DNA of 64,000 nucleotides from Synechococcales cyanobacterium C42_A2020_086 (GTDB lineage: Bacteria; Cyanobacteriota; Cyanobacteriia; Elainellales; Elainellaceae), in NCBI GenBank assembly GCA_015272325.1, contig JACYLU010000021.1, positions 62,001-126,000 of the forward strand. The letters run 5' to 3'. Within the stretch, counting starts at the first letter, position 1. Every line of letters starts with the position of its first letter. The notes beneath the pieces are model-generated. The model searched no databases and was not told the DNA's origin. It worked only from the letters and a program-made list of their open reading frames with translations. Shown here one piece after another: positions 12,007 to 33,594 of the stretch. Both the position numbers and the translations under genes were made by a program.

Positions 12007-13119
12007 CTACGCCACACCTGTTCCACCGGATTGAATCAACACCTCGGGATAGTAGCCCGCTGGCTTCAGCCCGACGGTGGTGCCACCATGGATCATGCCT
12101 TGAATTTCGGCGTCAAAGAAACTGTAGGGAAACTGAGATTCCGGGCGGCTGACCGTTTCTAACCGCTGCCGCAGTTCCGCAGGCATTTCAAACTCCAGTG
12201 CCTTCAGGTTGTCTTCGAGCTGTGATAGCTTCGTCGCGCCCACAATCACCGAGCTAACTCCGGGACGATTCGCGACCCAGTTCACAGCGACTTGCGCCAT
12301 GCTGCGACCGAGTTCCTGAGCCACCTGCTCCAGTTCTGCCACAATTCTCCAATTGCGTTCGCCAAACTTTTGAAACGCTGGATTCTGAATGCCCTTCACG
12401 GTTTCCAGCCGTCCTTCGCCGGTGACACCCCCCTCACTCGGGCGATACTTACCGCTCAGCAGACCGCTCGCTAGGGGACTCCAGACCATGATACCCATGC
12501 CCAACTCCGTGCCCAGCGACACAAACTCGCGTTCGATATTGCGCTCCACGAGGGAATATTCGAGCTGCAACGTTGAGAGCGGTTCGTAGCCGCGCCATTC
12601 GGCTAGGGTTTGTGCTCGCGCTGCATACCAGGCCGGCGTATCGCTCAAGCCAATGTGGCGCACCTTACCCGATCGCACCAAATCATCCAGCGTTCGCATC
12701 ACTTCTTCGGCGGGTGTGATTCGGTCCCAGGTATGCAGAATATAAAGGTCAATGTAGTCCGTTCCTAGCCGTTGCAGAGAGCCTTCTACAGCTCGCAGAA
12801 TGTTCTTGCGCCCATTACCGCCTGCGTTGGGATTGCCGGGTTCTGCATTGTAGGAAAACTTGGTAGCGATAATCATGCGGTCGCGCAGATTGCGTTCAGC
12901 AATAAATTTCCCCACCCAGGTTTCGCTGGTTCCTCCGGTGTACAGATCAGCCGTATCGATAAAATTACCGCCCGCATCTACATAGGTATTAAATAACTGC
13001 TGCGCCGTGCTTTCATCGCTGCCCCAGCCCCATTCGGTGCCGAAGGTCATGGTGCCGAGGGCCAGGCGACTGACGCGCAGCCCAGAGCGTCCGAGGGTGT
13101 AATAGGTATTGAGTGTCAT
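12007..13119 (-). CDS. Aldo/keto reductase
   Basis: 370 residues from the ATG at 13117-13119 (CAGGAGT 9 nt upstream). It is a NAD(P)H-dependent carbonyl/aldehyde reductase of the TIM-barrel AKR superfamily. The catalytic tetrad is visible: Asp and Tyr in FIDTADLYTGG, Lys in IIATKFSY, His in LYILHTWD. The C-terminal cofactor segment is SSVIVGATKLSQLEDNL. The length exceeds the usual 320-350 because of a C-terminal tail. Its start codon overlaps the stop of a small signal-peptide ORF (ATGA at 13116-13119), so translation may be coupled. It lies in a leftward cluster with MFS and NTF2-like genes. Confidence 0.93.
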   Translation of the reverse strand: MTLNTYYTLGRSGLRVSRLALGTMTFGTEWGWGSDESTAQQLFNTYVDAGGNFIDTADLYTGGTSETWVGKFIAERNLRDRMIIATKFSYNAEPGNPNAGGNGRKNILRAVEGSLQRLGTDYIDLYILHTWDRITPAEEVMRTLDDLVRSGKVRHIGLSDTPAWYAARAQTLAEWRGYEPLSTLQLEYSLVERNIEREFVSLGTELGMGIMVWSPLASGLLSGKYRPSEGGVTGEGRLETVKGIQNPAFQKFGERNWRIVAELEQVAQELGRSMAQVAVNWVANRPGVSSVIVGATKLSQLEDNLKALEFEMPAELRQRLETVSRPESQFPYSFFDAEIQGMIHGGTTVGLKPAGYYPEVLIQSGGTGVA

Positions 13120-19537: not shown

Positions 19538-22500
19538 ATGGCAACCCTCGAAGATCTCACCCGTGGTACGACCGTCAAAGGTATTCTGCCAGATCAAACC
19601 GTTACCGTGATTGATGCGACGTGGCACGGAAGTGAGGTGGTAGAGCTGACCTACAAGGATGCGAGTGGTCATTTGGGCAATGGCCTCTTTTTTCGCCACG
19701 ATGAATCCACCCTAGAGATTGTCACCGACGGGCAACCCTGGTGCTTCGATGGGGATGGGGCGTTGCTGCGGCTGGTGTCCGAGGCCCATCGCATTCGGCT
19801 GGCCCATCTCTTCGATCCACTGCTGGCGGTGCATACTTCGTTAGTGGAACCTCTGCCTCACCAGATCACGGCAGTGTATGGTGAGATGCTGACCCGTCAG
19901 CCGCTGCGGTTTCTCTTGGCGGATGATCCGGGTGCCGGAAAAACTATTATGGCGGGACTGTTGATCCGAGAATTGCTGATTCGGGGGGACTTACACCAGT
20001 GTCTAGTTGTGTGTCCGGGGAGTCTGGCGGTGCAGTGGCAGGATGAGCTGTTCCACAAGTTTCATCTGCCCTTTGAGATTTTGACGAACGATCGCATTGA
20101 AGCGGCAAGGACGGGCAATGCCTTTACAGAGATGCCGCTGGTGATTGCGCGGTTGGATAAGCTGAGTCGGGATGAGAATCTGCAAGCCAAGCTGGGGCAA
20201 ACGGATTGGGATCTGGTGGTGGTGGATGAAGCGCATAAGCTATCTGCCTCGTTTTTTGGGGGTGAAGTCAAAGAGACTAAGCGGTATAAGCTCGGGAGGC
20301 TGCTGTCCACGCTGACTCGCCATTTCCTGCTGATGACGGCGACACCTCACAATGGGAAGGAAGAGGATTTTCAATTGTTTCTGGCATTGCTGGACGGCGA
20401 TCGCTTTGAGGGGCGCTTCCGGGATGGGGTGCATACCTGTGATGCGTCGGATTTGATGCGGCGACTGGTCAAGGAGGATCTGCTGAAGTTTGATGGCAAA
20501 CCGCTGTTTCCGGAGCGGCGGGCGCATACGGTGCAGTATGGTCTGTCGGAGCTGGAGGCGGTGCTTTATCAGCGGGTGACGGACTATGTGCGGGAGGAGT
20601 TTAATCGGGCAGAAGCGCTAGCAAATGAGGGACGCAAGGGAACGGTGGGCTTTGCCCTGACGATTTTGCAGCGGCGGTTGGCTTCGTCGCCGGAAGCGAT
20701 CTATCAGTCCTTGCGGCGGCGCAGGGAGCGATTGGAGAAGCGGCTGCGGGAGGAAAGCTGGGAACCACAGAGACACGGAGGGCACGGAGAAGGAACTCTG
20801 TGGACTCTGTGCCTCCGTGGTGAATTAGAAGAGGAAGATTTGACAGCTGAGGAATGGGCGATCGCTGAGGAAGAGGTGGTGGATCTGGCGACGGCATCCC
20901 AAACGATCGCCGAACTGCAAGCCGAGATTCACCAGCTCGATGAACTCGAAAGTCTAGCCTTGCGGGTTCGACGCAGTGGCAAGGATCGCAAATGGGATGA
21001 GCTATCTAAGCTGTTACAGAATAGCGCTGAGATGTTTGATGCTGGAGGGCATCGGCGCAAACTGGTGATCTTTACCGAACATCGGGATACCCTGAACTAT
21101 TTGGTCAGTCAGATTACGACCCTGATCGGGCGACCTGAGGCGGTGGTTACGATCCACGGTGGCATGGGACGGGAAGAGCGCAAGAAAGCAGAGGAAGCGT
21201 TTAAGCAGGATGTGGCGGTGCAAGTTTTGATCGCTACGGATGCAGCGGGGGAAGGGATTAACCTGCAACGGGCACATTTGATGGTGAACTACGATCTGCC
21301 GTGGAACCCGAATCGACTGGAGCAGCGGTTTGGGCGAATTCACCGGATTGGACAAACGGAAGTCTGCCATCTTTGGAATCTGGTGGCGGCGGAAACCCGC
21401 GAGGGGGATGTGTATCTCTCGCTGCTGAAGAAGCTGGAGATTGAGCAACGGGCGCTCGGTGGCAAGGTGTTTGATGTGTTGGGGAAAGCGATCGCGGGGC
21501 AGGAGTTGCGAGAACTGCTGATTGAAGCAATTCGGTATGGCGATCGCCCAGACGTAAAGGCGAAGCTGGATCAGGTGGTGGCCGATCGCCTTGACCAAAG
21601 TCGGTTGCGAGCGTTGCTAGAGGAACGCGCCCTGGCACGGGACTCGATGGATGTGACCAAGGTGCAGCAGATTCGCCAGGAGATGGAGCGGGCGGAAGCC
21701 CGAAAACTCCAGCCCCATTTCATTGCCTCCTTTTTCTTAGAAGCCTTCCAGCGATTGGGCGGTACGATTCGGCAGCGGGAACCCAAACGCTACGAAATTA
21801 CCCATGTTCCGGCGGTGATTCGCAGCCGTGACCGGGTGATGGGTCGGGGTGAACCGATTCTGCGGCGCTATGAGCGGATCTGTTTTGAAAAAGAACTGAT
21901 CAGTGTGCCGGGAAAACCTCTGGCGGATTTTGTCTGCCCCGGTCATCCTTTGCTGGATGCCACCCTTGATTTGACCTTGGAGCGTCATCGGGATCTGCTG
22001 CGGCAAGGGGCCATTTTGGTGGATGAAACCGATCCGGGGGAGGAAGTCCGAGCGTTGGTGTATTTGGAGCATTCCATTCAGGATGCGCGGACTGAGAGGG
22101 ATGGACGGCGGCGGGTCGTCTCGCGGCGGATGCAGTATGTGGAGATGGGGGAACCACAGAGGCACGGAGAGCACGGAGAGATAGAAGTCAGGAGTGGGGG
22201 GTATGCGCCTTACCTGGATTATCGTCCCCTTACCCCTGATGAACGGACTTGCCTAGAGGCTCAAGAAACTCTGTGTCCTCTGTGCCTCTGTGGTTCGAAT
22301 CTCGAATCCCAAGCCACCACCTATGCCATCACTCATCTTGTCCCCCAACACCTCCAAGAAGTGCGGCAACGAAAGGAAGAGCTGATTGAAAAGACGGTTC
22401 GAGCGGTGAAGGATCGCTTGACGAAGGAAATCAACTACTGGGATCAACGCGCCGCCGAACTCCGCCTACAGGAGCAAGCGGGCAAGCCCAATGCCAAGCT

Positions 22501-23137
22501 CAACTCTGCTAGAGCACAACAACGGGCCGACGAGCTAGCCGATCGCCTGCAAAAGCGCCTAGCCGAACTGGAACAGGAACGCAAGCTGTCTCCCCTACCT
22601 CCAGTAGTGATCGGTCGGGCGCTAGTGGTGCCGATCGGTCTATTGCAACGGCTGCAAGGTAAACGGGAGTCGGCGGCTAGTCTCTTTGCCAGAGAGACCA
22701 AGCGGGTGGAGCAAGCAGCGATGGCAGCCGTCATGGCGACCGAGCGGGCATTGGGATATGAGCCACGGGATGTTAGTGATCAGAAGTGCGGCTATGACAT
22801 CGAATCCTCGGCTGGGGGTGAGGGACTCCGATTTATTGAGGTAAAGGGCCGGATCGAAGGCGCAGAGGCCGTTACCGTGACTAAAAATGAGATTCTGACA
22901 GCGCTCAATAAACCCGAGAACTTTATCCTGGCGCTGGTGCAGGTGCCCGTGGATCGGAGTTTTCCAGAGGGGGATGTGTTTAAGGCGAAGACGACTTCAG
23001 GCACCTATGCAGTACCAGGCGAGGGGTGCATTGTGCGCTATGTGCGGCAGCCATTTCAGCGGGAGCCAGATTTTGGGGCGAGTAGTGTCAATTATGAATG
23101 GCGAGAGTTGTGGGAGAGAGGGGAGAAACCTCTGTGA
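19538..23137 (+). CDS. SNF2-type helicase with C-terminal DUF3883 domain (HMA/DrmD-like)
   Basis: 1199 residues. Superfamily 2 motifs are complete: Walker A DDPGAGKTIMAG (about 129-140), DEAH (230-233), LLMTATPHNG (about 265), and the C-lobe ending QRFGRIHRIGQ. The DDPGAGKT form is that of DrmD-like defence helicases. A long charged helical region follows. Residues about 1055-1170 match DUF3883, a nuclease-like PD-(D/E)xK fold (GYDIESS, FIEVKGR). Two palindromic repeat copies are read in frame, at 20764-20821 and 22153-22294, probably in surface loops. The final Pro-Leu and stop codon come from a third copy. It is probably the helicase of a helicase-methylase-ATPase defence system with the genes at 24261 and 30250. 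Confidence 0.93.
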   Translation: MATLEDLTRGTTVKGILPDQTVTVIDATWHGSEVVELTYKDASGHLGNGLFFRHDESTLEIVTDGQPWCFDGDGALLRLVSEAHRIRLAHLFDPLLAVHTSLVEPLPHQITAVYGEMLTRQPLRFLLADDPGAGKTIMAGLLIRELLIRGDLHQCLVVCPGSLAVQWQDELFHKFHLPFEILTNDRIEAARTGNAFTEMPLVIARLDKLSRDENLQAKLGQTDWDLVVVDEAHKLSASFFGGEVKETKRYKLGRLLSTLTRHFLLMTATPHNGKEEDFQLFLALLDGDRFEGRFRDGVHTCDASDLMRRLVKEDLLKFDGKPLFPERRAHTVQYGLSELEAVLYQRVTDYVREEFNRAEALANEGRKGTVGFALTILQRRLASSPEAIYQSLRRRRERLEKRLREESWEPQRHGGHGEGTLWTLCLRGELEEEDLTAEEWAIAEEEVVDLATASQTIAELQAEIHQLDELESLALRVRRSGKDRKWDELSKLLQNSAEMFDAGGHRRKLVIFTEHRDTLNYLVSQITTLIGRPEAVVTIHGGMGREERKKAEEAFKQDVAVQVLIATDAAGEGINLQRAHLMVNYDLPWNPNRLEQRFGRIHRIGQTEVCHLWNLVAAETREGDVYLSLLKKLEIEQRALGGKVFDVLGKAIAGQELRELLIEAIRYGDRPDVKAKLDQVVADRLDQSRLRALLEERALARDSMDVTKVQQIRQEMERAEARKLQPHFIASFFLEAFQRLGGTIRQREPKRYEITHVPAVIRSRDRVMGRGEPILRRYERICFEKELISVPGKPLADFVCPGHPLLDATLDLTLERHRDLLRQGAILVDETDPGEEVRALVYLEHSIQDARTERDGRRRVVSRRMQYVEMGEPQRHGEHGEIEVRSGGYAPYLDYRPLTPDERTCLEAQETLCPLCLCGSNLESQATTYAITHLVPQHLQEVRQRKEELIEKTVRAVKDRLTKEINYWDQRAAELRLQEQAGKPNAKLNSARAQQRADELADRLQKRLAELEQERKLSPLPPVVIGRALVVPIGLLQRLQGKRESAASLFARETKRVEQAAMAAVMATERALGYEPRDVSDQKCGYDIESSAGGEGLRFIEVKGRIEGAEAVTVTKNEILTALNKPENFILALVQVPVDRSFPEGDVFKAKTTSGTYAVPGEGCIVRYVRQPFQREPDFGASSVNYEWRELWERGEKPL
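20764..20821. repeat. Palindromic repeat inside the helicase gene (copy a)
   Basis: Arms 20764-20789 and 20796-20821, each 26 nt, separated by 6 nt; about 20 of 26 positions pair. It is read in frame as roughly residues 409-428 (EPQRHGGHGE...LCLRGE) without breaking the helicase. Confidence 0.85.
22153..22294. repeat. Split palindromic repeat inside the helicase gene (copy b)
   Basis: Left arm 22153-22178 and right arm 22269-22294 enclose 90 nt of coding sequence. Both arms are read in frame (EPQRHGEHGE and LCPLCLCGS). Either the spacer was captured between the arms or two half-elements inserted separately. Confidence 0.75.
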
Positions 23138-24226: not shown

Positions 24227-24254
24227 TCTCCGTGCCCTCCGTGTCTCTGTGGTT
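24227..24254. repeat. Single-arm palindromic repeat before the methylase (copy e)
   Basis: TCTCCGTG, CCCTCCGTG and TCTCTGTGG units end 6 nt before the methylase ATG at 24261, so this half-element occupies the position of the methylase ribosome-binding site. No other Shine-Dalgarno is visible. Confidence 0.75.
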
Positions 24255-25017
24255 CCTCCCATGCCCCATCGCAAAAAACTGATCGAAATCGCCCTCCCCC
24301 TGGAAGCCATCAACCTCGAATCGGCCCGTGAAAAATCCATCCGCCACGGGCACCCCAGCACCCTCCATCTCTGGTGGGCACGCCGACCGTTGGCGGCCTG
24401 TCGAGCGGTGTTATGGGCTTCGCTCGTCGATGATCCCTCAAGTTGGCCGGACAAATTCCCCACGGAGGCAGACCAAACGCGAGAACGGCAGCGGCTATTT
24501 GATATTTTGGGGCGGATTGAGACGGAAACGGATAAGAAGGGGAATCAGAAGCAGGTCGTCCGAGGGCTGGTGTCGTGGGATGAGGTGAATGATGCCAAGT
24601 CTGGGGTATTGGAAGCTGCCCAGCGGGAGATTGCCCGGTGTTTGGCGTGGGAGCGGGGGGAGGAGCCACCGAAAAAACCGGATGCGGTGCGGGCCTATAT
24701 TGCGAAGTATGCCCCACCCGTGTATGACCCGTTTGCGGGGGGTGGGTCGATTCCGTTGGAGGCGCAGCGCTTGGGGCTAGAAGCCCATGCCAGTGATTTG
24801 AACCCGGTGGCGGTGTTGATCAATAAGGCTTTAATCGAAATTCCGCCGAAGTTTAAGGATAAATCTCCGGTCAATCCTGAAGATCGGGCTAAGAAAAGTA
24901 TCTCATCGTGGCGGGGGGCGCAGGGGTTGGCGGCGGATGTGCGGTTTTATGGGGCGTGGATGCGGGAGCGGGCGTTTGAGCGGATTGGGCATTTGTATCC
25001 GAAGGTGAGGATTGGGA

Positions 25018-25043
25018 ACCACGGAGGCACGGAGGGCACAGAG
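25018..25043. repeat. Single-arm repeat inside the methylase gene (copy f)
   Basis: ACCACGGAG-GCACGGAG-GGCACAGAG, read in frame as NHGGTEGTE directly before the ATVIAWLWARTV segment. Confidence 0.8.
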
Positions 25044-25188
25044 GCGACGGTGATTGCCTGGCTATGGGCGCGGACGGTGACGTGTCCGAACCCGGCCTGT
25101 GGGTGTGCGATGCCGCTGGTGCGATCGTTTCAGCTTTCGACGAAGAAGGGGAAGGAGGCTTGGGTAGAGCCGATCGTGGAGAATATGA

Positions 25189-25246
25189 ACCACGGAGACA
25201 CAGAGAGCACAGAGCAACCTCTCCGTGACCTCCGTGCCTCTGTGGT
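25189..25246. repeat. Palindromic repeat inside the methylase gene (copy g)
   Basis: Arms 25189-25214 and 25221-25246. Read in frame as NHGDTESTEQ then LRDLRASVVN, between WVEPIVENM and KIRFVVKSG, close to the Zn-ribbon region. The conserved sequence resumes on both sides. Confidence 0.85.
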
Positions 25247-27227
25247 GAATAAAATCCGATTCGTCGTCAAATCAGGCCAGGGCAAAGCCCCAGAAGGCAG
25301 TATGAGCCGTAAGGGTGCAGTTTGCATTGCTTGTAAAACACCTGTTCCTTTTGAGTACATTCGCTCAGAAGGATGCAGAGTAGGTATGGGATCGCAGCTT
25401 ATGGCGATCGTTGCTGAGGGTAAATCGGGCAGGGTTTATCTTTCGCCTGATGAGTACCATGTGGAAGTTGCCAATTCAGCACAGCCAACTTGGAAGCCAG
25501 AGGCAGAACTTCCTGATAATACTCGTGATATTCGCCCTCAAATTTATGGGTTGCCAACCTATGGCGACCTCTTCACCCCCCGGCAATTGGTGGCCCTCAC
25601 CACCTTCAGCGATCTGGTGGGGGAAGCACGGGAACGGGCAACTCAGGATGCCCTTGCCGCTGGCCTACCCGATGATGATGTGCCCCTGGCAGAGGGCGGA
25701 ACCGGGGCGAGAGCCTATGGAGAGGCGATCGCGACTTATTTGGCATTTGCAGTAGATAAGATGACAGATTATCACTCTGATCTTTGCAGTTGGCACTCAG
25801 GACGAGACACTATTCGCAATACCTTTGGTAGACAAGCCATTCCGATGGTGTGGGATTTTGCCGAAGCCAATCCAATGAGTGATTCAACAGGCAACTTTAA
25901 CGGTGCCATTGAATGGGTTGTCAAAGTCCTGGAAATAGCCCATCCACACGCCTACTCAAAAGTCACCCAACATGACGCAACCGCCCCTCACCCCAACGAC
26001 ACCACCCCCAAACTCATCTCCACCGACCCGCCCTATTACGACAACATCGGTTACGCAGACTTAGCAGATTTTTTCTATGTCTGGCTGCGGCGCTCCCTCA
26101 GTTCCATTTATCCCACCACTTTCAGCACGCTCCTCGTCCCCAAAGCTCAAGAACTCGTCGCTACCCCCTATCGCTTTGATGGCAGCAAACAAAAAGCTCA
26201 AGCATTCTTTGAAGCAGGACTCGGTAAAGCCTTCAATCGAATGCACGAAATCTCCCATGCGGATTATCCGCTAACGGTTTACTACGCCTTCAAGCAAGCA
26301 GAAACAGATCAAAAAGGCAAAAGTGATGAATCCATCGCTTCTACCGGATGGGAAACCATGCTAGAAGGCTTAATCAAAGCCGATTTCACCATTGATGGCA
26401 CCTGGCCCATGCGGAGCGAACTCAGTAACCGCATGGTCGCATCCGGCACTAACGCCCTCGCCTCCTCGATCGTCCTTGTCTGCCGCCCCCGCCCCGCCGA
26501 TGCGCCCAAAATCACCCGTCGCCAATTCCTCACCAACTCAAACGCCAACTGCCCCCCGCCCTCAAAACGCTCCAGCAAGGCAACATCGCCCCCGTCGATC
26601 TCGCCCAGGCCAGCATCGGCCCCGGTATGGCCATCTACTCCCAATACGCCGCCGTCCTCGAAAACGATGGTTCCCCCCTGCGCGTCCGCACCGCCCTGCA
26701 ACTGATCAACCAACTCCTCGACGAATACCTCACCGAACAGGAAGGCGAATTCGACAGCGACACCCGCTGGGCGCTCACCTGGTTCGAGCAATACCAGTTT
26801 GAACCCGGCCAGTACGGCGACGCCGAAACCCTCAGCAAAGCCAAAAACACCAGCGTCCAGGGCATGGTGGAAGCGGGCATCCTGGAAGCCAAAGGCGGCA
26901 AAGTGCGCCTACTCCAACGCAGCGAACTAAAGTCAGACTGGAATCCCGCCCAAGACCACCGCATCCCCGACTGGGAAATCACCCAATACCTCATCCATGC
27001 CCTCGATCAACAGGGCGAAACCGGAGCCGCCGCACTGCTGGCTAAACTGGGAGGCAGAGGTGAAATTGCCCGCGACCTCGCCTATCGGCTGTATAGCCTG
27101 TGCGATAAAAAAGGCTGGACCCAAGAGAGCCTCGCCTACAACAGCCTCGTCATCTCCTGGCCCGAAATCAGCCGCCTCGCCGCAGATATGCAGTCCACCA
27201 CCCCTCTCCAAACCAGCTTGCTCTAAC

Positions 27228-27287
27228 CTCCGTGCTCTCCGTGCCTCTGTGGTGAATACGAACCACGGAGACACAGAGACCACAGAG
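27228..27287. repeat. 60-nt palindromic repeat (copy h)
   Basis: Arms 27228-27253 and 27262-27287 with the 8-nt spacer GAATACGA. It starts 1 nt after the methylase stop codon. Confidence 0.9.
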
Positions 27288-27288
27288 A

Positions 27289-27364
27289 TTTCCCCCAAGG
27301 AGACACCCCACTGCATCAAGTCCGTTCTATCCTGAAACACCTAGCCAAGCGCGAACAGCCCTAA
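27289..27364 (+). pseudogene. Deletion scar: Uma2 leader fused to the 3' end of a nuclease gene
   Basis: 27289-27308 is identical to the 20 nt just upstream of the Uma2 gene at 28180 (up to the base before its ATG). From 27311 the sequence reads LHQVRSILKHLAKREQP-stop, matching the last residues of the nuclease gene at 28855-29484 (LYQVLSILKQLAKLGQP-stop). A deletion in an ancestral repeat-Uma2-repeat-nuclease array, like the one still present downstream, would produce exactly this. Confidence 0.8.
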
Positions 27365-27366
27365 CC

Positions 27367-27426
27367 CTCCGTGCCCTCCGCGCCTCTGTGGTGAATACGA
27401 ACCACGGAGACACAGAGACCACAGAG
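27367..27426. repeat. 60-nt palindromic repeat (copy i)
   Basis: Arms 27367-27392 and 27401-27426 with spacer GAATACGA. It begins 2 nt after the stop codon of the nuclease remnant. Confidence 0.9.
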
Positions 27427-27447: not shown

Positions 27448-28092
27448 ATGGTCACCCTCCAACTCCGACAACTCACCGTTCCCCCCGGTCAACGCCTGCT
27501 GATTCAGGATGTCAACTGGTCAGAATTTGAAGCCATCCTGGATGAACTGGGCGAAAAACGCGCTAGCCGCATTGCCTATAGCGATGGAACGTTGGAAATC
27601 CGAATGCCATTACCCAAACACGAGCGGGAGAAATCAATTATCGGAGATATTATCAAAATCCTATTGGAAGAACTAGAAATTGACTGCGAATGTTTTGGCT
27701 CAACGACGTTCAAGCGGCAAGAAATGAACTACGGCATTGAACCGGATGAGTGCTTCTATATCCAAAACCATGAAACCATGATTGGCAAAGATCGGCTGGA
27801 CTTATCCGTTGACCCGCCTCCCGATCTCGCCATTGAGGTCGATGTCACCTCCAAAACCCAGCTCGAAGCTTACACCCGCCTGGGAGTTCCGGAACTCTGG
27901 GTCTACGAAGATACTGAGCTAAAAATTTACATCCTGCAATCCGGGCAATATCAGGTTTCTGCTACCAGCCCAACCTTTCCCGATTTGCCAATTGTGGCGT
28001 GGGTATCAGAAGTATTAGAGCAGAGCCGAGAGCTTGGCCGAAGTCCAGCCTTACGCGCCTTTCGCCAAAAAATCAGATCCCGCTCAGCCTGA
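27448..28092 (+). CDS. Uma2-family PD-(D/E)xK protein A
   Basis: 214 residues from the ATG at 27448; an upstream in-frame ATG lies in the repeat and is not a likely start. Uma2 signatures: an N-terminal strand-helix region, SRIAYSDGTLEIRMPLPKHE, the strand with catalytic acidic residues in IEPDECFYIQN, and PPDLAIEVDVTSK followed by YTRLGVPELWVY. The fold is that of restriction-endonuclease-like nucleases, but the role of Uma2 proteins is unknown. The sequence differs clearly from the two downstream Uma2 copies, so it is a different subfamily. Repeats i and j bound it on both sides. Confidence 0.9.
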   Translation: MVTLQLRQLTVPPGQRLLIQDVNWSEFEAILDELGEKRASRIAYSDGTLEIRMPLPKHEREKSIIGDIIKILLEELEIDCECFGSTTFKRQEMNYGIEPDECFYIQNHETMIGKDRLDLSVDPPPDLAIEVDVTSKTQLEAYTRLGVPELWVYEDTELKIYILQSGQYQVSATSPTFPDLPIVAWVSEVLEQSRELGRSPALRAFRQKIRSRSA

Positions 28093-28098
28093 TAAACC

Positions 28099-28158
28099 CT
28101 CCGTGCCCTCCGCGCCTCTGTGGTAAATACGAACCACGGAGACACCGAGCACACAGAG
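28099..28158. repeat. 60-nt palindromic repeat (copy j)
   Basis: Arms 28099-28124 and 28133-28158. It opens the first copy of a 733-bp duplicated block and differs from copy l at one position. Confidence 0.9.
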
Positions 28159-28179
28159 CTTTCCCCCAAGGAGACACCC

Positions 28180-28752
28180 ATGATCGCCCTGAAACTCCGA
28201 CCCACCCTGCAACTTACCGATGAAGTGTTTGAGCAACTCTGCCAGCAAAACCCTGACCTGCGCCTCGAACGCACCGCCCAAGGAGAATTGATTGCCATGG
28301 CCCCCGCCGGCAGTGAAAGTGGATATCGCAATGCCGATTTGCTAGGTCAACTCTGGCAGTGGAATCGCCAGATGCGCCTAGGCGTGGTCTTCGACTCCTC
28401 CGCCGGATTCACCTTGCCCAACGGTGCCATTCGCTCTCCTGATGCCGCCTGGGTGGAACAATCGCGCTGGGAACGCCTCACGCCTGAGCAACGCCGCAAA
28501 TTTGCCCCCCTCTGCCCCGACTTTGTGCTGGAACTCAAATCCCCCACCGATGACCTCACTACTCTCCAAGCCAAGCTGCAAGAATACATCGACAATGGCG
28601 CCCAACTCGGTTGGCTGATTGACCCGGAAACCCAGTGCGTCTACTGCTATCGACCCGGACAAGCAGTGCAACTTTTAGAACGTCCGGTCAGCCTCTGCGG
28701 CGACCCAGTGCTCCCCAACTTTGTGATGGACTTCAACCTCATCTGGGAGTGA
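28180..28752 (+). CDS. Uma2-family PD-(D/E)xK protein B, copy 1
   Basis: 190 residues. AAGGAG precedes the ATG at 28180. Family signature: LRLERTAQGELIAMAPAGSE, the strand pair SPDAAWVEQSRW, the E-x-K core CPDFVLELKSPTD, then a helix and GAQLGWLIDPETQCVYCY. Nuclease-like fold; the biological role of the family is unresolved. The protein is identical to the product of 29568-30140. Upstream and downstream repeats make it look like a movable gene block inserted between methylase and ATPase genes. Confidence 0.92.
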   Translation: MIALKLRPTLQLTDEVFEQLCQQNPDLRLERTAQGELIAMAPAGSESGYRNADLLGQLWQWNRQMRLGVVFDSSAGFTLPNGAIRSPDAAWVEQSRWERLTPEQRRKFAPLCPDFVLELKSPTDDLTTLQAKLQEYIDNGAQLGWLIDPETQCVYCYRPGQAVQLLERPVSLCGDPVLPNFVMDFNLIWE

Positions 28753-28771
28753 TCATCAAAGCCCCCTAACC

Positions 28772-28831
28772 CTCCGTGCCCTCTGTGCCTCTGTGGTGGA
28801 TACGAACCACGGAAACACCGAGCACACAGAG
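28772..28831. repeat. 60-nt palindromic repeat (copy k)
   Basis: Arms 28772-28797 and 28806-28831. It ends the first duplicated block and differs from copy m at two positions. Confidence 0.9.
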
Positions 28832-28854
28832 ATAGTCCCTCCAGGTATTCTCCA

Positions 28855-29484
28855 ATGACCACGACCATCCCAGCCGCTGAAGTAACCCTCCGCACTCTCA
28901 AACAAACGCTCAATCTGCAGGAGTCTACGGATCCGCAGTTCTTTTCAGAATGGCAGATCGAGACTGGGGAACTTGCGGAGATGGAACAGGTCTATCTCGA
29001 TCGCGTCAAGGGCAACTTTTTAGACTTGCTCGAAGATCCTCCTGCCCTAGAAAATGGCGTCAAAATGGTGGTACTTGCCCCATTGCTCGATCTGGCTGGA
29101 TTTTATCGTCGTCCTTTTCGGATCACCACCGAAACCAGCATCGCCATCGAACTAGAAGACGAAGGACGGGTCATTCAAGGCCGTATCGACGTATTAGTGC
29201 TCAACCAGTTTCTCTGGCTAGTGGTCATCGAATCCAAACGCAGTGATTTTGCCGTGACTCGCGCCCTGCCTCCAACCTTAGCCTACATGCTGGGGAATCC
29301 TAAACGAGAACACCCTACCTTCGGCCTCATTACCAACGGCACCGACTTTTTATTCCTCAAAGCCACCCACCCACCCATTGCTCAGTACGCTACCTCTCGC
29401 CTCTTTTCCCTCCTCAATCCCGGTAACGAACTGTATCAAGTCCTATCCATTCTGAAACAGCTAGCCAAGCTTGGACAGCCCTAA
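28855..29484 (+). CDS. HsdR N-terminal-like nuclease-fold protein
   Basis: 209 residues. After an N-terminal helical part there is the type I restriction R-subunit N-terminal (HSDR_N) pattern: LVLNQFLWLVVIESKR preceded by GRIDV, giving the D...E-x-K core of PD-(D/E)xK nucleases, then LAYMLGNPKREHPTFGLITN and DFLFLKAT. The protein stops there: no helicase or translocase domain follows, so it is a stand-alone nuclease-like module. It lies between repeats k and l. A 17-codon 3' remnant of a second copy survives at 27311-27364. It may assist the HMA system or be a passenger. Confidence 0.85.
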   Translation: MTTTIPAAEVTLRTLKQTLNLQESTDPQFFSEWQIETGELAEMEQVYLDRVKGNFLDLLEDPPALENGVKMVVLAPLLDLAGFYRRPFRITTETSIAIELEDEGRVIQGRIDVLVLNQFLWLVVIESKRSDFAVTRALPPTLAYMLGNPKREHPTFGLITNGTDFLFLKATHPPIAQYATSRLFSLLNPGNELYQVLSILKQLAKLGQP

Positions 29485-29486
29485 CC

Positions 29487-29546
29487 CTCCGTGCCCTCCG
29501 CGCCTCTGTGGTAAATACGAACCACGGAGACACAGAGCACACAGAG
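29487..29546. repeat. 60-nt palindromic repeat (copy l)
   Basis: Arms 29487-29512 and 29521-29546, starting 2 nt after the nuclease stop codon. It opens the second duplicated block. Confidence 0.9.
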
Positions 29547-29567: not shown

Positions 29568-30140
29568 ATGATCGCCCTGAAACTCCGACCCACCCTGCAA
29601 CTTACCGATGAAGTGTTTGAGCAACTCTGCCAGCAAAACCCTGACCTGCGCCTCGAACGCACCGCCCAAGGAGAATTGATTGCCATGGCCCCCGCCGGCA
29701 GTGAAAGTGGATATCGCAATGCCGATTTGCTAGGTCAACTCTGGCAGTGGAATCGCCAGATGCGCCTAGGCGTGGTCTTCGACTCCTCCGCCGGATTCAC
29801 CTTGCCCAACGGTGCCATTCGCTCTCCTGATGCCGCCTGGGTGGAACAATCGCGCTGGGAACGCCTCACGCCTGAGCAACGCCGCAAATTTGCCCCCCTC
29901 TGCCCCGACTTTGTGCTGGAACTCAAATCCCCCACCGATGACCTCACTACTCTCCAAGCCAAGCTGCAAGAATACATCGACAATGGCGCCCAACTCGGTT
30001 GGCTGATTGACCCGGAAACCCAGTGCGTCTACTGCTATCGACCCGGACAAGCAGTGCAACTTTTAGAACGTCCGGTCAGCCTCTGCGGCGACCCAGTGCT
30101 CCCCAACTTTGTGATGGACTTCAACCTCATCTGGGAGTGA
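29568..30140 (+). CDS. Uma2-family PD-(D/E)xK protein B, copy 2
   Basis: 190 residues, identical in protein sequence to the product of 28180-28752 and, as far as I can see, in nucleotide sequence too. The leader differs by one base (GACGCCC instead of GACACCC before the ATG). The same AAGGAG site is present. Exact identity inside the gene with differences only in the flanks suggests very recent duplication or ongoing gene conversion. Confidence 0.92.
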   Translation: MIALKLRPTLQLTDEVFEQLCQQNPDLRLERTAQGELIAMAPAGSESGYRNADLLGQLWQWNRQMRLGVVFDSSAGFTLPNGAIRSPDAAWVEQSRWERLTPEQRRKFAPLCPDFVLELKSPTDDLTTLQAKLQEYIDNGAQLGWLIDPETQCVYCYRPGQAVQLLERPVSLCGDPVLPNFVMDFNLIWE

Positions 30141-30159
30141 TCATCAAAGCCCCCTAACC

Positions 30160-30219
30160 CTCTGTGCCCTCTGTGCCTCTGTGGTGAATACGAACCACGG
30201 AAACACCGAGCACACAGAG
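30160..30219. repeat. 60-nt palindromic repeat (copy m)
   Basis: Arms 30160-30185 and 30194-30219. It is the last copy of the family, 30 nt before the DUF499 gene start; no copy is seen beyond it. Confidence 0.9.
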
Positions 30220-30249: not shown

Positions 30250-33200
30250 ATGGCCATTAGCAATCACGAACGAGTTGGACGTGCTCTCAATCTACTCCGC
30301 AACGGGCTTTACCCCTTCGTTGAACGCGAGATGAAAGCCATCCACGGCGATCGCTGGCTAATCCCTGCCTCCGCCTGCCTACCCGACAGCTACGTCAAAC
30401 ACAAGCCTGTCCAAGAGGTGCTTCAAGAAGACGTCTCCGCCCTGCTGATTGTCATGTGGGAGCAATGGAACAGCATTTTCAAGCAAAGCCTGGGACAATC
30501 CGAACGCACCCTGGTTAGCGAACTCCGCACCACCCGCAACGACTGGGCACACACCACCACCTTCTCCACCGATGACGCCTACCGGGCCCTCGACAGCATC
30601 GCCCGTCTCCTCACGGCTATTTCTGCCCCCGAAGCCGCCGAAGTCGAAAAGCAAAAGCAAGAACTTCTGCGCCTCCGATTTGAAGAGCAAGCCCGCAACC
30701 TTACCCGCCGCACCACCATTGCCCCAACCGAAGGCCAACCCCAAGCAGGACTCAAACCCTGGCGCGAAATTGCCACTCCCCACCCCGATGTTGCCTCCGG
30801 GCGCTTCCAGCAAGCTGAATTTGCCGCCGACCTCTGGCAGGTCTATCTGGATGAAGGTTCCGACGAATACCGTGACCCCACCGAATTCTATCGCCGCACC
30901 TATCTCACCGACGGGCTGCGACAACTGCTGAAAAATGCCCTGCGGCGGTTGAGCGGTCAGGGCGGCGATCCGGTCATCGAACTGCAAACCAACTTTGGCG
31001 GCGGCAAAACCCACGCCATGCTGGCCCTCTATCACCTGTGTCAGGCCATGCAAATCTCGGACTTGCCTGGGATGGAACCGCTCTTTCAGGACGTGGGGAT
31101 TGCTGCGCCGCCTCAAAATGTCAATGTGGCAGTTTTGGTGGGGAACAAACTCCAGCCCAGCGGCATTGTGCCTTACAAACTAGAACAGCGCAGCCAGAAT
31201 CGCCCCGTGATCCGAACCCTCTGGGGAGAACTGGCCTGGCAACTGGGAGGAGCCGAGGGCTATGAACTAGTGCGGCAAGCGGATGAAACTTCCACGAACC
31301 CCGGCGATGCCCTTAAGGTGTTGTTCAACCGCTTTTCTCCCTGCCTGATTCTGATCGATGAATGGGTCGCCTACGCCCGCCAACTCCACGAACAAAGCGA
31401 CTTACCCGGCGGCAGTTTCGATACCCAATTCACCTTTGCCCAGACCCTCAGCGAATCTGCCAAAAATGCCAGAGATACCCTGCTGGTGGTCAGTATTCCA
31501 TCGTCTGATATTGAGATTGGCGGCGACCGCGGCAAAGAAGCCCTCGACCGGCTCAAAAATGCCATCGGTCGGGTGGAATCCCCCTGGCGACCTGCCAGTG
31601 CTGAAGAAAGTTTTGAAATCGTTCGGCGGCGGCTGTTTCAGCCCATTACCGACCCTAGCCTATTTGTGCAGCGAGATGTGGTCATTAAAGCCTTTATGGA
31701 CATGTATCGCACCCAAGGCCAGGAGTTTCCCAGCGAATGCAAAGAAGCCGATTACGAGCGCCGTCTGAAAGCCGCCTACCCCATCCATCCCGAACTGTTT
31801 GATCGCCTCTACACCGACTGGTCTACCCTCGACAAATTCCAGCGCACCCGGGGTGTCCTGCGGTTGATGGCCAAGGTCATCCATTCCCTCTGGGAGCGTA
31901 ATGACCAGAGCCTGATGATGATGCCTGCCCACGTGCCCATGGACGATCAGCAGGTGCAGTCTGAACTGACGCGCTACCTGGAAGATAACTGGCTGCCCGT
32001 GATCGACAAGGATGTCGATGGCACCAACTCCCTGCCCTTGACCCTCGATCGCAACAATCCCAACCTCGGTCGATACTCTGCTTGCCGTCGGGTCACCCGC
32101 ACCATCTATATGGGGTCTGCGCCCACCCTGCGCGCTGCCAACCGGGGACTCGACGATCGCCGCATCAAACTCGGCTGTGTGCAACCCGGCGAAACCCCCG
32201 CCACCTTTGGTGATGCCCTGCGACGACTCACCGACCAAGCCACCTACCTCTACGTCGACGACAGCAAACGCTATTGGATTTCCACCCAACCCAACGTCAA
32301 CCGCACGGCTTTGGAACGGGCTGAGCAGATTTTGAGCGATCGCCACCCCGTCTGGAACGAAATCATCAAACGCCTCAAAGCTGACAAAAGTCGGGGAGAA
32401 TTCAGCGCTGTCCATGTCGCTCCCCACTCCACCACCGACATTCCCGACGACTGCACCCAGGGTGTCCGGCTAGTAGTTTTGCATCCCGAACAATGTCACA
32501 GCAGAGGCAGCACAGATAGCCCCGCCCGCCAATGGGTCGAGAACGCCCTAAACCACAAAGGCAGCGGTCCCCGCTATTACAAAAACACCCTACTCTTTCT
32601 GGCACCAGATAAAGCCAAAATCGAAAATCTGGAACGCAATACCGCGCAGTATCTCGCCTGGAAAGCGATCGTCGATGAGAAAGAAACCCTCAACCTGGAT
32701 GCCTTCCAGAGCAACCAAGCCACCACCAAACTCAAGCAGTCCAACCAGGATGTCGATGCCATTCTCCGCGACACCTACCAGTGGCTTCTAGCCCCCACGC
32801 AACCCGATGCCCGAAGCGGCATTGAGTGGAAGGAAACCCGGCTGCAAGGGCAGGATTCCCCCATCTTGCAGGCAAGCCGCAAAGCGGTACACGAAGGAGA
32901 TTTGTTACCCAATTACTCCGCCACCAACTTGCGACTTGAAGCCCTCGACAAATATCTCTGGCGCGATACAAATCACATCGATCTCAAACGGCTGTGGGAC
33001 TATCTCACCCAGTATCTTTACCTGCCTCGCTTGCAAGATCAATCTGTGCTTCTAGCAGCCGTGCGCGATGGGGTTGCCAGAACCGACTGGGCGGATAACT
33101 TCGCCTACGCCGAAGGCTTTGATGAGGCCAAGGGCAAGTATCTTGGTCTGCGGGTCGCGACAGGCATCAACCCCAGCGTCAGCCCCCAAAGCCTGTTAGT

Positions 33201-33594
33201 CAAGCCAGAGGTTGCCCAAAAGCAATTGGACGAGGAGAGGACAAAGGAGGAAAGAGAAGCCAGGAAAGAGAACACCGGCGAAACAAGTCAACCACTGGCA
33301 CATCATCAGCCCACCGTCCCTCACTCCTCTGCGCTCTCTCCTCTTTCCTCTGCCCCTATCCTGCGCAGATTTTATGGGAATGTGGAGCTTGACGCGATGC
33401 GGATTAATCGAGATGCCTCCACGATCGCCCACGAAGTCATTCAACACCTCACCGCACTGAATGGCGCAACGGTCAAAGTCACGCTGGAGATTGAAGCTGA
33501 AATTCCTGAGGGCGTCCCCGATGATATAGTCCGAACGGTGATGGAGAACTGCCGGACACTCAAGTTTAAGACGCAATCATTTGAGCAGAGTTGA
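30250..33594 (+). CDS. DUF499 P-loop ATPase with HEPN-like N-terminus (HMA system)
   Basis: 1114 residues from the ATG at 30250; the longer frame from 30181 begins inside repeat m. The N-terminal 120 residues (ISNHERVGRALNLLRNGLYP, then FVEREM) match the Swt1-type HEPN domain seen at the start of DUF499 proteins. The DUF499 AAA-like core has Walker A NFGGGKTHAMLALYHL near residue 250 and Walker B CLILIDEWVAYAR near 366. Long helical parts follow, then an acidic/basic linker (about 990-1035) and a C-terminal domain starting FYGNVELDAMRINRDAST. DUF499 proteins are relatives of the BREX/Pgl ATPases PglY/BrxC. With the helicase and methylase this completes the three-gene HMA set. Confidence 0.92.
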   Translation: MAISNHERVGRALNLLRNGLYPFVEREMKAIHGDRWLIPASACLPDSYVKHKPVQEVLQEDVSALLIVMWEQWNSIFKQSLGQSERTLVSELRTTRNDWAHTTTFSTDDAYRALDSIARLLTAISAPEAAEVEKQKQELLRLRFEEQARNLTRRTTIAPTEGQPQAGLKPWREIATPHPDVASGRFQQAEFAADLWQVYLDEGSDEYRDPTEFYRRTYLTDGLRQLLKNALRRLSGQGGDPVIELQTNFGGGKTHAMLALYHLCQAMQISDLPGMEPLFQDVGIAAPPQNVNVAVLVGNKLQPSGIVPYKLEQRSQNRPVIRTLWGELAWQLGGAEGYELVRQADETSTNPGDALKVLFNRFSPCLILIDEWVAYARQLHEQSDLPGGSFDTQFTFAQTLSESAKNARDTLLVVSIPSSDIEIGGDRGKEALDRLKNAIGRVESPWRPASAEESFEIVRRRLFQPITDPSLFVQRDVVIKAFMDMYRTQGQEFPSECKEADYERRLKAAYPIHPELFDRLYTDWSTLDKFQRTRGVLRLMAKVIHSLWERNDQSLMMMPAHVPMDDQQVQSELTRYLEDNWLPVIDKDVDGTNSLPLTLDRNNPNLGRYSACRRVTRTIYMGSAPTLRAANRGLDDRRIKLGCVQPGETPATFGDALRRLTDQATYLYVDDSKRYWISTQPNVNRTALERAEQILSDRHPVWNEIIKRLKADKSRGEFSAVHVAPHSTTDIPDDCTQGVRLVVLHPEQCHSRGSTDSPARQWVENALNHKGSGPRYYKNTLLFLAPDKAKIENLERNTAQYLAWKAIVDEKETLNLDAFQSNQATTKLKQSNQDVDAILRDTYQWLLAPTQPDARSGIEWKETRLQGQDSPILQASRKAVHEGDLLPNYSATNLRLEALDKYLWRDTNHIDLKRLWDYLTQYLYLPRLQDQSVLLAAVRDGVARTDWADNFAYAEGFDEAKGKYLGLRVATGINPSVSPQSLLVKPEVAQKQLDEERTKEEREARKENTGETSQPLAHHQPTVPHSSALSPLSSAPILRRFYGNVELDAMRINRDASTIAHEVIQHLTALNGATVKVTLEIEAEIPEGVPDDIVRTVMENCRTLKFKTQSFEQS

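Follow-up and report, generated by a model that had tools for sequence, protein, structure and literature searches.

A probable deletion relic of Uma2 and nuclease genes between HmaB and HmaC of a cyanobacterial defence operon

The locus raises the question of how the start of one gene came to lie against the end of another, in a short stretch (27288-27364) with a repeat on each side, and which genes stood there before. From the sequence alone it had been read as a deletion scar proving an earlier, longer cassette array. The window, that is, the whole stretch of 64,000 nt that was analysed (G000:C22:62001-126000), belongs to a genome of 5.93 Mb in 38 contigs (G000). Searches covered 388 genomes of the class, G000 included, among which the same-genus genomes numbered 0.

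The Hma locus and the two halves of the scar

The locus carries a SNF2-type helicase gene, HmaA (19538-23137; PADLOC HmaA, 1672 bits), a DUF1156 methyltransferase gene, HmaB (24249-27226), and the gene of an ATPase, HmaC (30250-33594; PADLOC HmaC, with HEPN_Swt1 and DUF499 matches). The three Hma genes and all parts of the array between HmaB and HmaC lie on the forward strand. With helicase, methyltransferase and ATPase in one locus, it is a member of the Hma or DUF499-centred BREX-related type 1 systems. HmaB runs over two frames in the G000 assembly (24249-26705 and 26627-27226), both recognised as HmaB by PADLOC, and forms one frame in G040. The split is decay or a sequencing error and is not decisive for family membership. 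From HmaB to HmaC the order is palindrome, scar, palindrome, Uma2a (27448-28092; PF05685), palindrome, Uma2b copy 1 (28180-28752; PF05685), palindrome, an intact HSDR_N-like nuclease gene (28855-29484; PF04313, 25.4 bits against a cut-off of 25.1), palindrome, Uma2b copy 2 (29568-30140; coding sequence equal to that of copy 1 over 570 nt) and palindrome.

The scar consists of the 5' end of one local gene and the 3' end of another, with a sharp joint, as expected of a deletion relic. The leader piece (27288-27308, ATTTCCCCCAAGGAGACACCC) shares 20 of its 21 nt with the Uma2b leader (28159-28179) and contains AAGGAG. The joint (27309-27310) reads CA, which is not clearly assignable to either side; microhomology is not clear. 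The tail piece (27311-27364) runs from CTG to CCC TAA and holds the last 17 codons of the nuclease gene and its stop. It is translated as LHQVRSILKHLAKREQP, against LYQVLSILKQLAKLGQP in the intact nuclease, with 42 of 51 nt and 12 of 17 residues identical.

Leader (23 nt) and tail (49 nt) probes were scored against the window, and 200 shuffles of each against both of its strands. The two Uma2b leaders scored 20/23 and 19/23 with the leader probe (best matches of the shuffles: mean 15.9, maximum 18), and the nuclease gene scored 40/49 with the tail probe (shuffles: mean 27.0, maximum 32). The matches of both halves are far above chance. The sequence-only reading, in which a Uma2 leader was joined to the last 17 nuclease codons between two repeats, was confirmed in this respect, with the leader starting at 27288.

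In the class-wide search two candidates were scored per genome, so that weaker second matches were possibly missed. The left half matched the leader between HmaB and Uma2b in G159 (E 2.6e-6, 96%), the downstream Uma2b leader of G000 itself (2.9e-6) and a leader in G040 (5.9e-4). The right half had its best DNA match outside G000 at the 3' end of the G040 nuclease gene (E 1.2e-9). The other matches listed for the two halves were short, with E above 0.006. The halves separate at 27309/27310, each matching different genomes, and at two candidates per genome no other genome of the 388 showed leader and tail joined. Within its own genome the full scar matched only itself, and positions 27222-27426 gave no match in a plasmid collection.

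The residues of the tail were also compared with 55 rows of nuclease homologues, in which some genes occur twice and the window's own gene is included; rows with matches ending short of residue 200 or beginning past residue 150 were dropped. The local nuclease and its G040 orthologue matched best (12/17 residues each), followed by 9/17. An origin of the tail from an unrelated gene, named beforehand as the result that would overturn the reading, is therefore unsupported. On these matches, the two halves are relics of real gene families.

Over the 51 nt of the tail, the scar differs from the intact nuclease gene at 9 positions and from the G040 gene at 9, and the latter two differ from each other at 13. 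Of the variable sites, six group the scar with G040 and six with the intact gene; at two more the scar stands alone, and at one all three sequences differ. The tail is equally near both nucleases, with six sites each way, and 51 nt are too few for closer placing. The 3' end of the gene diverges faster than the remainder, with 13/51 differences between G000 and G040 against a gene-wide mean of 5.8 per 51 nt. With 9 differences in 51 nt from the intact nuclease and as many from that of G040, the tail is not recently copied from the intact gene, and the earlier statement that the remnant had diverged and came from another copy holds. The site pattern indicates that the relic's nuclease copy split from the intact one at roughly the time when the G000 and G040 copies split. 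The leader piece is too short to be assigned among Uma2b genes; one site favours G159 and one the local copies.

The HmaB-HmaC slot in other genomes

The slot was compared in 16 loci of 14 genomes in which both HmaC and the C-terminal part of HmaB were matched. Loci of G095, G026b, G069, G043, G051b, G376 and G112 were dropped for want of a match to one or the other. Uma2a lies in the slot of 10 loci (G000, G040, G051, G032b, G049, G041, G076, G099, G159 and G171) and the HSDR_N-like nuclease of this array in two (G000 and G040). In G159, HmaB is followed by a palindrome, ATTTCCCCCACGGAGACACCC and the ATG of Uma2b. In G040 it is followed by a palindrome, the nuclease gene (89% identical in amino acids), a palindrome and Uma2b. 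HmaB is followed by one palindrome and Uma2a in G171 and G041, and by Uma2a without a palindrome in G049 and G032b. Two Uma2b genes without palindromes stand directly after HmaB in G051, and likewise in G095, which was not counted as it gave no HmaC match. In G076 and G099 a palindrome-like stretch and a small gene pair precede Uma2b; the second gene of the pair is PemK/MazF-like in G076, and that of G099 is alike by eye. Other slot genes encode a PIN protein in G040 (by Pfam), with matches in G041, G032a, G026a and G028, and an HNH protein in G076.

The slot is variable, and the scar halves correspond to genes standing at the same position in other genomes; unoccupied versions of the scar site also exist. 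It had been proposed to look in relatives for an intact repeat-Uma2-nuclease unit at this position, and the outcome was divided. Uma2b in G159 and the nuclease gene in G040 each stand intact after HmaB, and the exact unit of palindrome, Uma2, palindrome and nuclease following HmaB was seen in none of the 16 loci. The order Uma2b, palindrome, nuclease is present in G000 itself, downstream of Uma2a.

Further tail-only pieces were observed. In G051 a relic retaining only a 3' end lies between Uma2a and HmaC (L068 reverse complement, 12574-12774). It is 47% identical over residues 129-196 to a gene that is complete in the G040 slot and to which Pfam assigns no family. Outside the window, at L143 (G000:C22:38976-39146), a tail-only match to the nuclease family (residues 148-204, 49%) lies beside a Uma2 gene.

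Palindromic repeats within and beyond the array

A 66-nt palindrome occupies all six junctions between HmaB and HmaC in G000: HmaB/scar (27222-27287), scar/Uma2a (27361-27426), Uma2a/Uma2b (28093-28158), Uma2b/nuclease (28766-28831), nuclease/Uma2b copy 2 (29481-29546) and Uma2b copy 2/HmaC (30154-30219). Folded as single-stranded DNA and compared with shuffles, two of the six stood out clearly (z -3.7, at 27222-27287, and -4.9), a third did so moderately (-2.3), and the effect was weak in the remaining three (-1.4 to -1.5). Some of the copies are thus poorly palindromic. The two that flank the scar are 139 nt apart and have 45 identical nt in common; the right one overlaps the scar's stop codon. 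Among 16 aligned fragments, the right-arm ending AGACCACAGAG of 27222-27287 recurs only in the repeat to the right of the scar and in the HmaB-Uma2a repeat of G171.

The palindrome at 27361-27426 is a mosaic of two other repeats. Its left arm equals that of the repeat after the nuclease gene (32/32) and its right arm that of the repeat after HmaB (26/26). The alternative pairings of the arms differ at 6 and 2 sites, and the mosaic rests on these 6 + 2 informative sites. The Uma2b tract at 28095-28832 is duplicated at an offset of 1388 with 4 mismatches in 738 nt, all of them outside the 570-nt coding sequence; each end of it coincides with the outer edge of a palindrome. G040 and G051 also have two Uma2b copies each, with identities of 98.8% and 90.2% respectively, and the identity of Uma2b between G000, G040 and G051 is 72.8-77.0%. 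Twins that are closer within genomes than between them point to separate duplications or gene conversion. The Uma2b copies of G051 and its congener G095 interleave (85-90%), so that the duplication may predate these two.

Along the locus, the DNA identity of G000 to G008 varies from part to part (HmaA 75-77%, the GxxExxY stretch 91%, parts of HmaB 83-96%, HmaC 77%), a sign of piecewise exchange. The mosaic, the arm ending shared with G171, the Uma2b duplications and the patchy identity fit homologous recombination at the palindromes and elsewhere as a putative pathway. Separately, the GxxExxY nuclease gene (PF13366, 23267-23644) was seen to adjoin palindromes, and its protein is 98% identical to that of G008, although HmaA is only 78% identical.

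Exact half-sites of the palindrome were found in 43 of 388 genomes, with 1 to 244 in each (244 in G206), and controls gave 0 or 1. When one mismatch was allowed, the Hma locus contained 25 of the 32 half-sites in G000 and 27 of the 28 in G008; the loci taken from G051, G049 and G009 contained no half-site. HmaA and HmaB themselves contain in-frame copies of the palindrome (20764-20821, 22153-22296 and 25018-25246), and several relatives have copies at similar positions, by eye. A further observation concerns HmaB of G040, in which a DUF559 domain is inserted in frame (L065 16783-17190, minus strand) between the peptides LTPQPPLPRGEG and LPSPSGRGAGGEG; by eye, these resemble another palindromic repeat family.

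The palindrome as a mobile element tied to Uma2 was not supported by a test in G206, where 2 of the 39 Uma2 matches listed for the stretch examined lay within 500 bp of half-sites (100 of 378 used), with 1.3 expected. In G000, 3 of 43 Uma2 matches fall in the array. Counter to the G206 result, a palindrome cluster of G159 outside the Hma locus (L145) lies, by eye, among Uma2-like open frames. The palindromes are read here as dispersed repeats that provide homology and recombination points, and not as part of a nuclease element.

Origin of the scar and comparison with known systems

The scar probably marks a deletion in which most of a Uma2b gene and of an HSDR_N-like nuclease gene, formerly located between HmaB and Uma2a, was lost. 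Palindrome-bounded genes would have entered the slot, been duplicated there and been exchanged by homologous recombination between palindromes, and a single later illegitimate deletion would have brought the Uma2b leader up against the nuclease 3' end. If the lost genes lay as far apart as the Uma2b and nuclease genes do now (28180 to 29431), the deletion would have taken out about 1.25 kb. The evidence for a deletion includes the matches of the split halves, the intact genes after HmaB in relatives, the loci with Uma2a next after HmaB, the Uma2b-nuclease order in G000 itself, the mosaic palindrome, the palindrome-to-palindrome duplication of Uma2b and the tail-only relic of G051. Against it, the complete predicted unit was not found after HmaB in any of the 16 loci, no same-genus genome is among the 388, the leader piece is too short to point to one Uma2b gene, the mosaic has few informative sites, and in the one further slot with this nuclease, that of G040, the nuclease precedes Uma2b, whereas a simple deletion requires the opposite order.

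The G040 order, which stands directly after HmaB, is the one expected if the joint was made by a tandem duplication. In a nuclease-palindrome-Uma2b array, a short stretch comprising the nuclease 3' end, the palindrome and the Uma2b leader would then have been duplicated, and recombination between palindromes would later have removed the intact nuclease and Uma2b genes. The distance and shared identity of the scar's two palindromes also agree with this account. It takes three events (one duplication and two losses) against one deletion, the neighbours of the scar are HmaB and Uma2a, not the nuclease and Uma2b expected of a fresh duplication, and the Uma2b-nuclease order needed for a deletion is present in G000 itself. 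A tandem duplication is judged unlikely. The Uma2b and nuclease genes once stood here under either reading, and an earlier, longer array is well supported. The word "proves" was too strong, since the exact form was found in 0 of 16 loci, a tandem duplication followed by losses would give the same joint and the 51-nt tail cannot be placed closer to either nuclease.

Break repair might instead have copied short pieces from the intact Uma2b and nuclease genes, both of which lie no more than 2.2 kb downstream. Such a templated insertion is very unlikely: the 9 differences of the tail from the intact gene, 6 of them at sites agreeing with G040, argue against a recent copy, an old copy lacks support, and relatives carry these genes at the same position. 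An error of assembly, joining two pieces of the array, was given slightly less weight still. The region is repetitive and the genome is in 38 contigs. The diverged tail occurs nowhere else in the assembly and is therefore not a misplaced copy of the intact gene, and the twin Uma2b tracts are told apart by their four flanking differences. Least credible, and nearly dismissed, is that the scar was kept for a function. AAGGAG, which resembles a Shine-Dalgarno sequence, stands eight bases ahead of a CTG in frame with the tail, from which a 17-residue peptide could start. That frame has no ATG, GTG or TTG from 27288 to 27361, the joined scar did not turn up elsewhere among the 388 genomes at two candidates per genome, and 5 of the 7 codons changed relative to the intact gene alter the residue. 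The relic itself is probably functionless.

A deletion, as the preferred origin, suggests that accessory genes of the operon come and go. The scar records such turnover in an Hma operon, with genes present, lost and duplicated at one slot. A single relic is routine genome decay and ordinary gene loss; the palindrome-bounded turnover of the slot is mildly interesting. The slot genes are probably exchangeable auxiliary nuclease or toxin effectors of Hma, in line with PMC12839542. More tentatively, and with doubt prevailing, the HmaB-HmaC gap may be a standing exchange slot, in which palindromes act as recombination ports, Uma2, HSDR_N-like, PemK/MazF, PIN and HNH genes are swapped singly in this anti-phage operon without an integrase, and relics are the footprints. 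If exchange really does take place through the palindromes, a defence operon would not need its own transposase or integrase to change effectors.

Hma was named by the authors of PADLOC from 1,638 instances (PMC8565338). In the portion of PMC12839542 covered, Hma is placed among DUF499-centred BREX-related systems, and auxiliary PD-(D/E)XK, HNH, HEPN, PIN and other nucleases are described in or near such loci; accessory nucleases at these loci are thus already known. The present locus is like them in its core of helicase, N6-methyltransferase and DUF499 ATPase and in its accessory nucleases (here Uma2 and HSDR_N-like, PIN in G040, HNH in G076). It is unlike that account in the palindrome-bounded turnover and gene relics, which are absent from the portion covered; neither "Uma2" nor "recombination" occurs in the main text of PMC12839542. 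Uma2 (COG4636) genes have expanded in some strains, as stated in PMC9403480. Unlike the cyanobacterial Uma2 clusters, as far as they are described in the accessible parts of PMC2701414 and PMC9403480, those here are mixed with another nuclease family, separated by palindromes and contained in one defence operon. In the literature searched, mostly titles and the openings of abstracts, no description was found of the palindrome-bounded turnover, the repeat family or the array.

Repeats of the REP, REPIN and MITE types are dispersed, short, imperfect palindromes. The array palindromes are likewise short, imperfect, dispersed in some genomes and placed at gene ends, with in-frame copies inside HmaA and HmaB; they are unlike such repeats in their concentration within the Hma locus of G000 (25/32 half-sites). 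Mobile integron cassettes are single genes between palindromic repeats, in arrays of varying content. The array here resembles them in having single genes separated by palindromic repeats and a variable content, and "cassette array" is fair in that its genes are bounded by repeats, though only loosely. Unlike those of integron cassettes, its repeats are near-identical to one another and also occur in frame inside the core genes.
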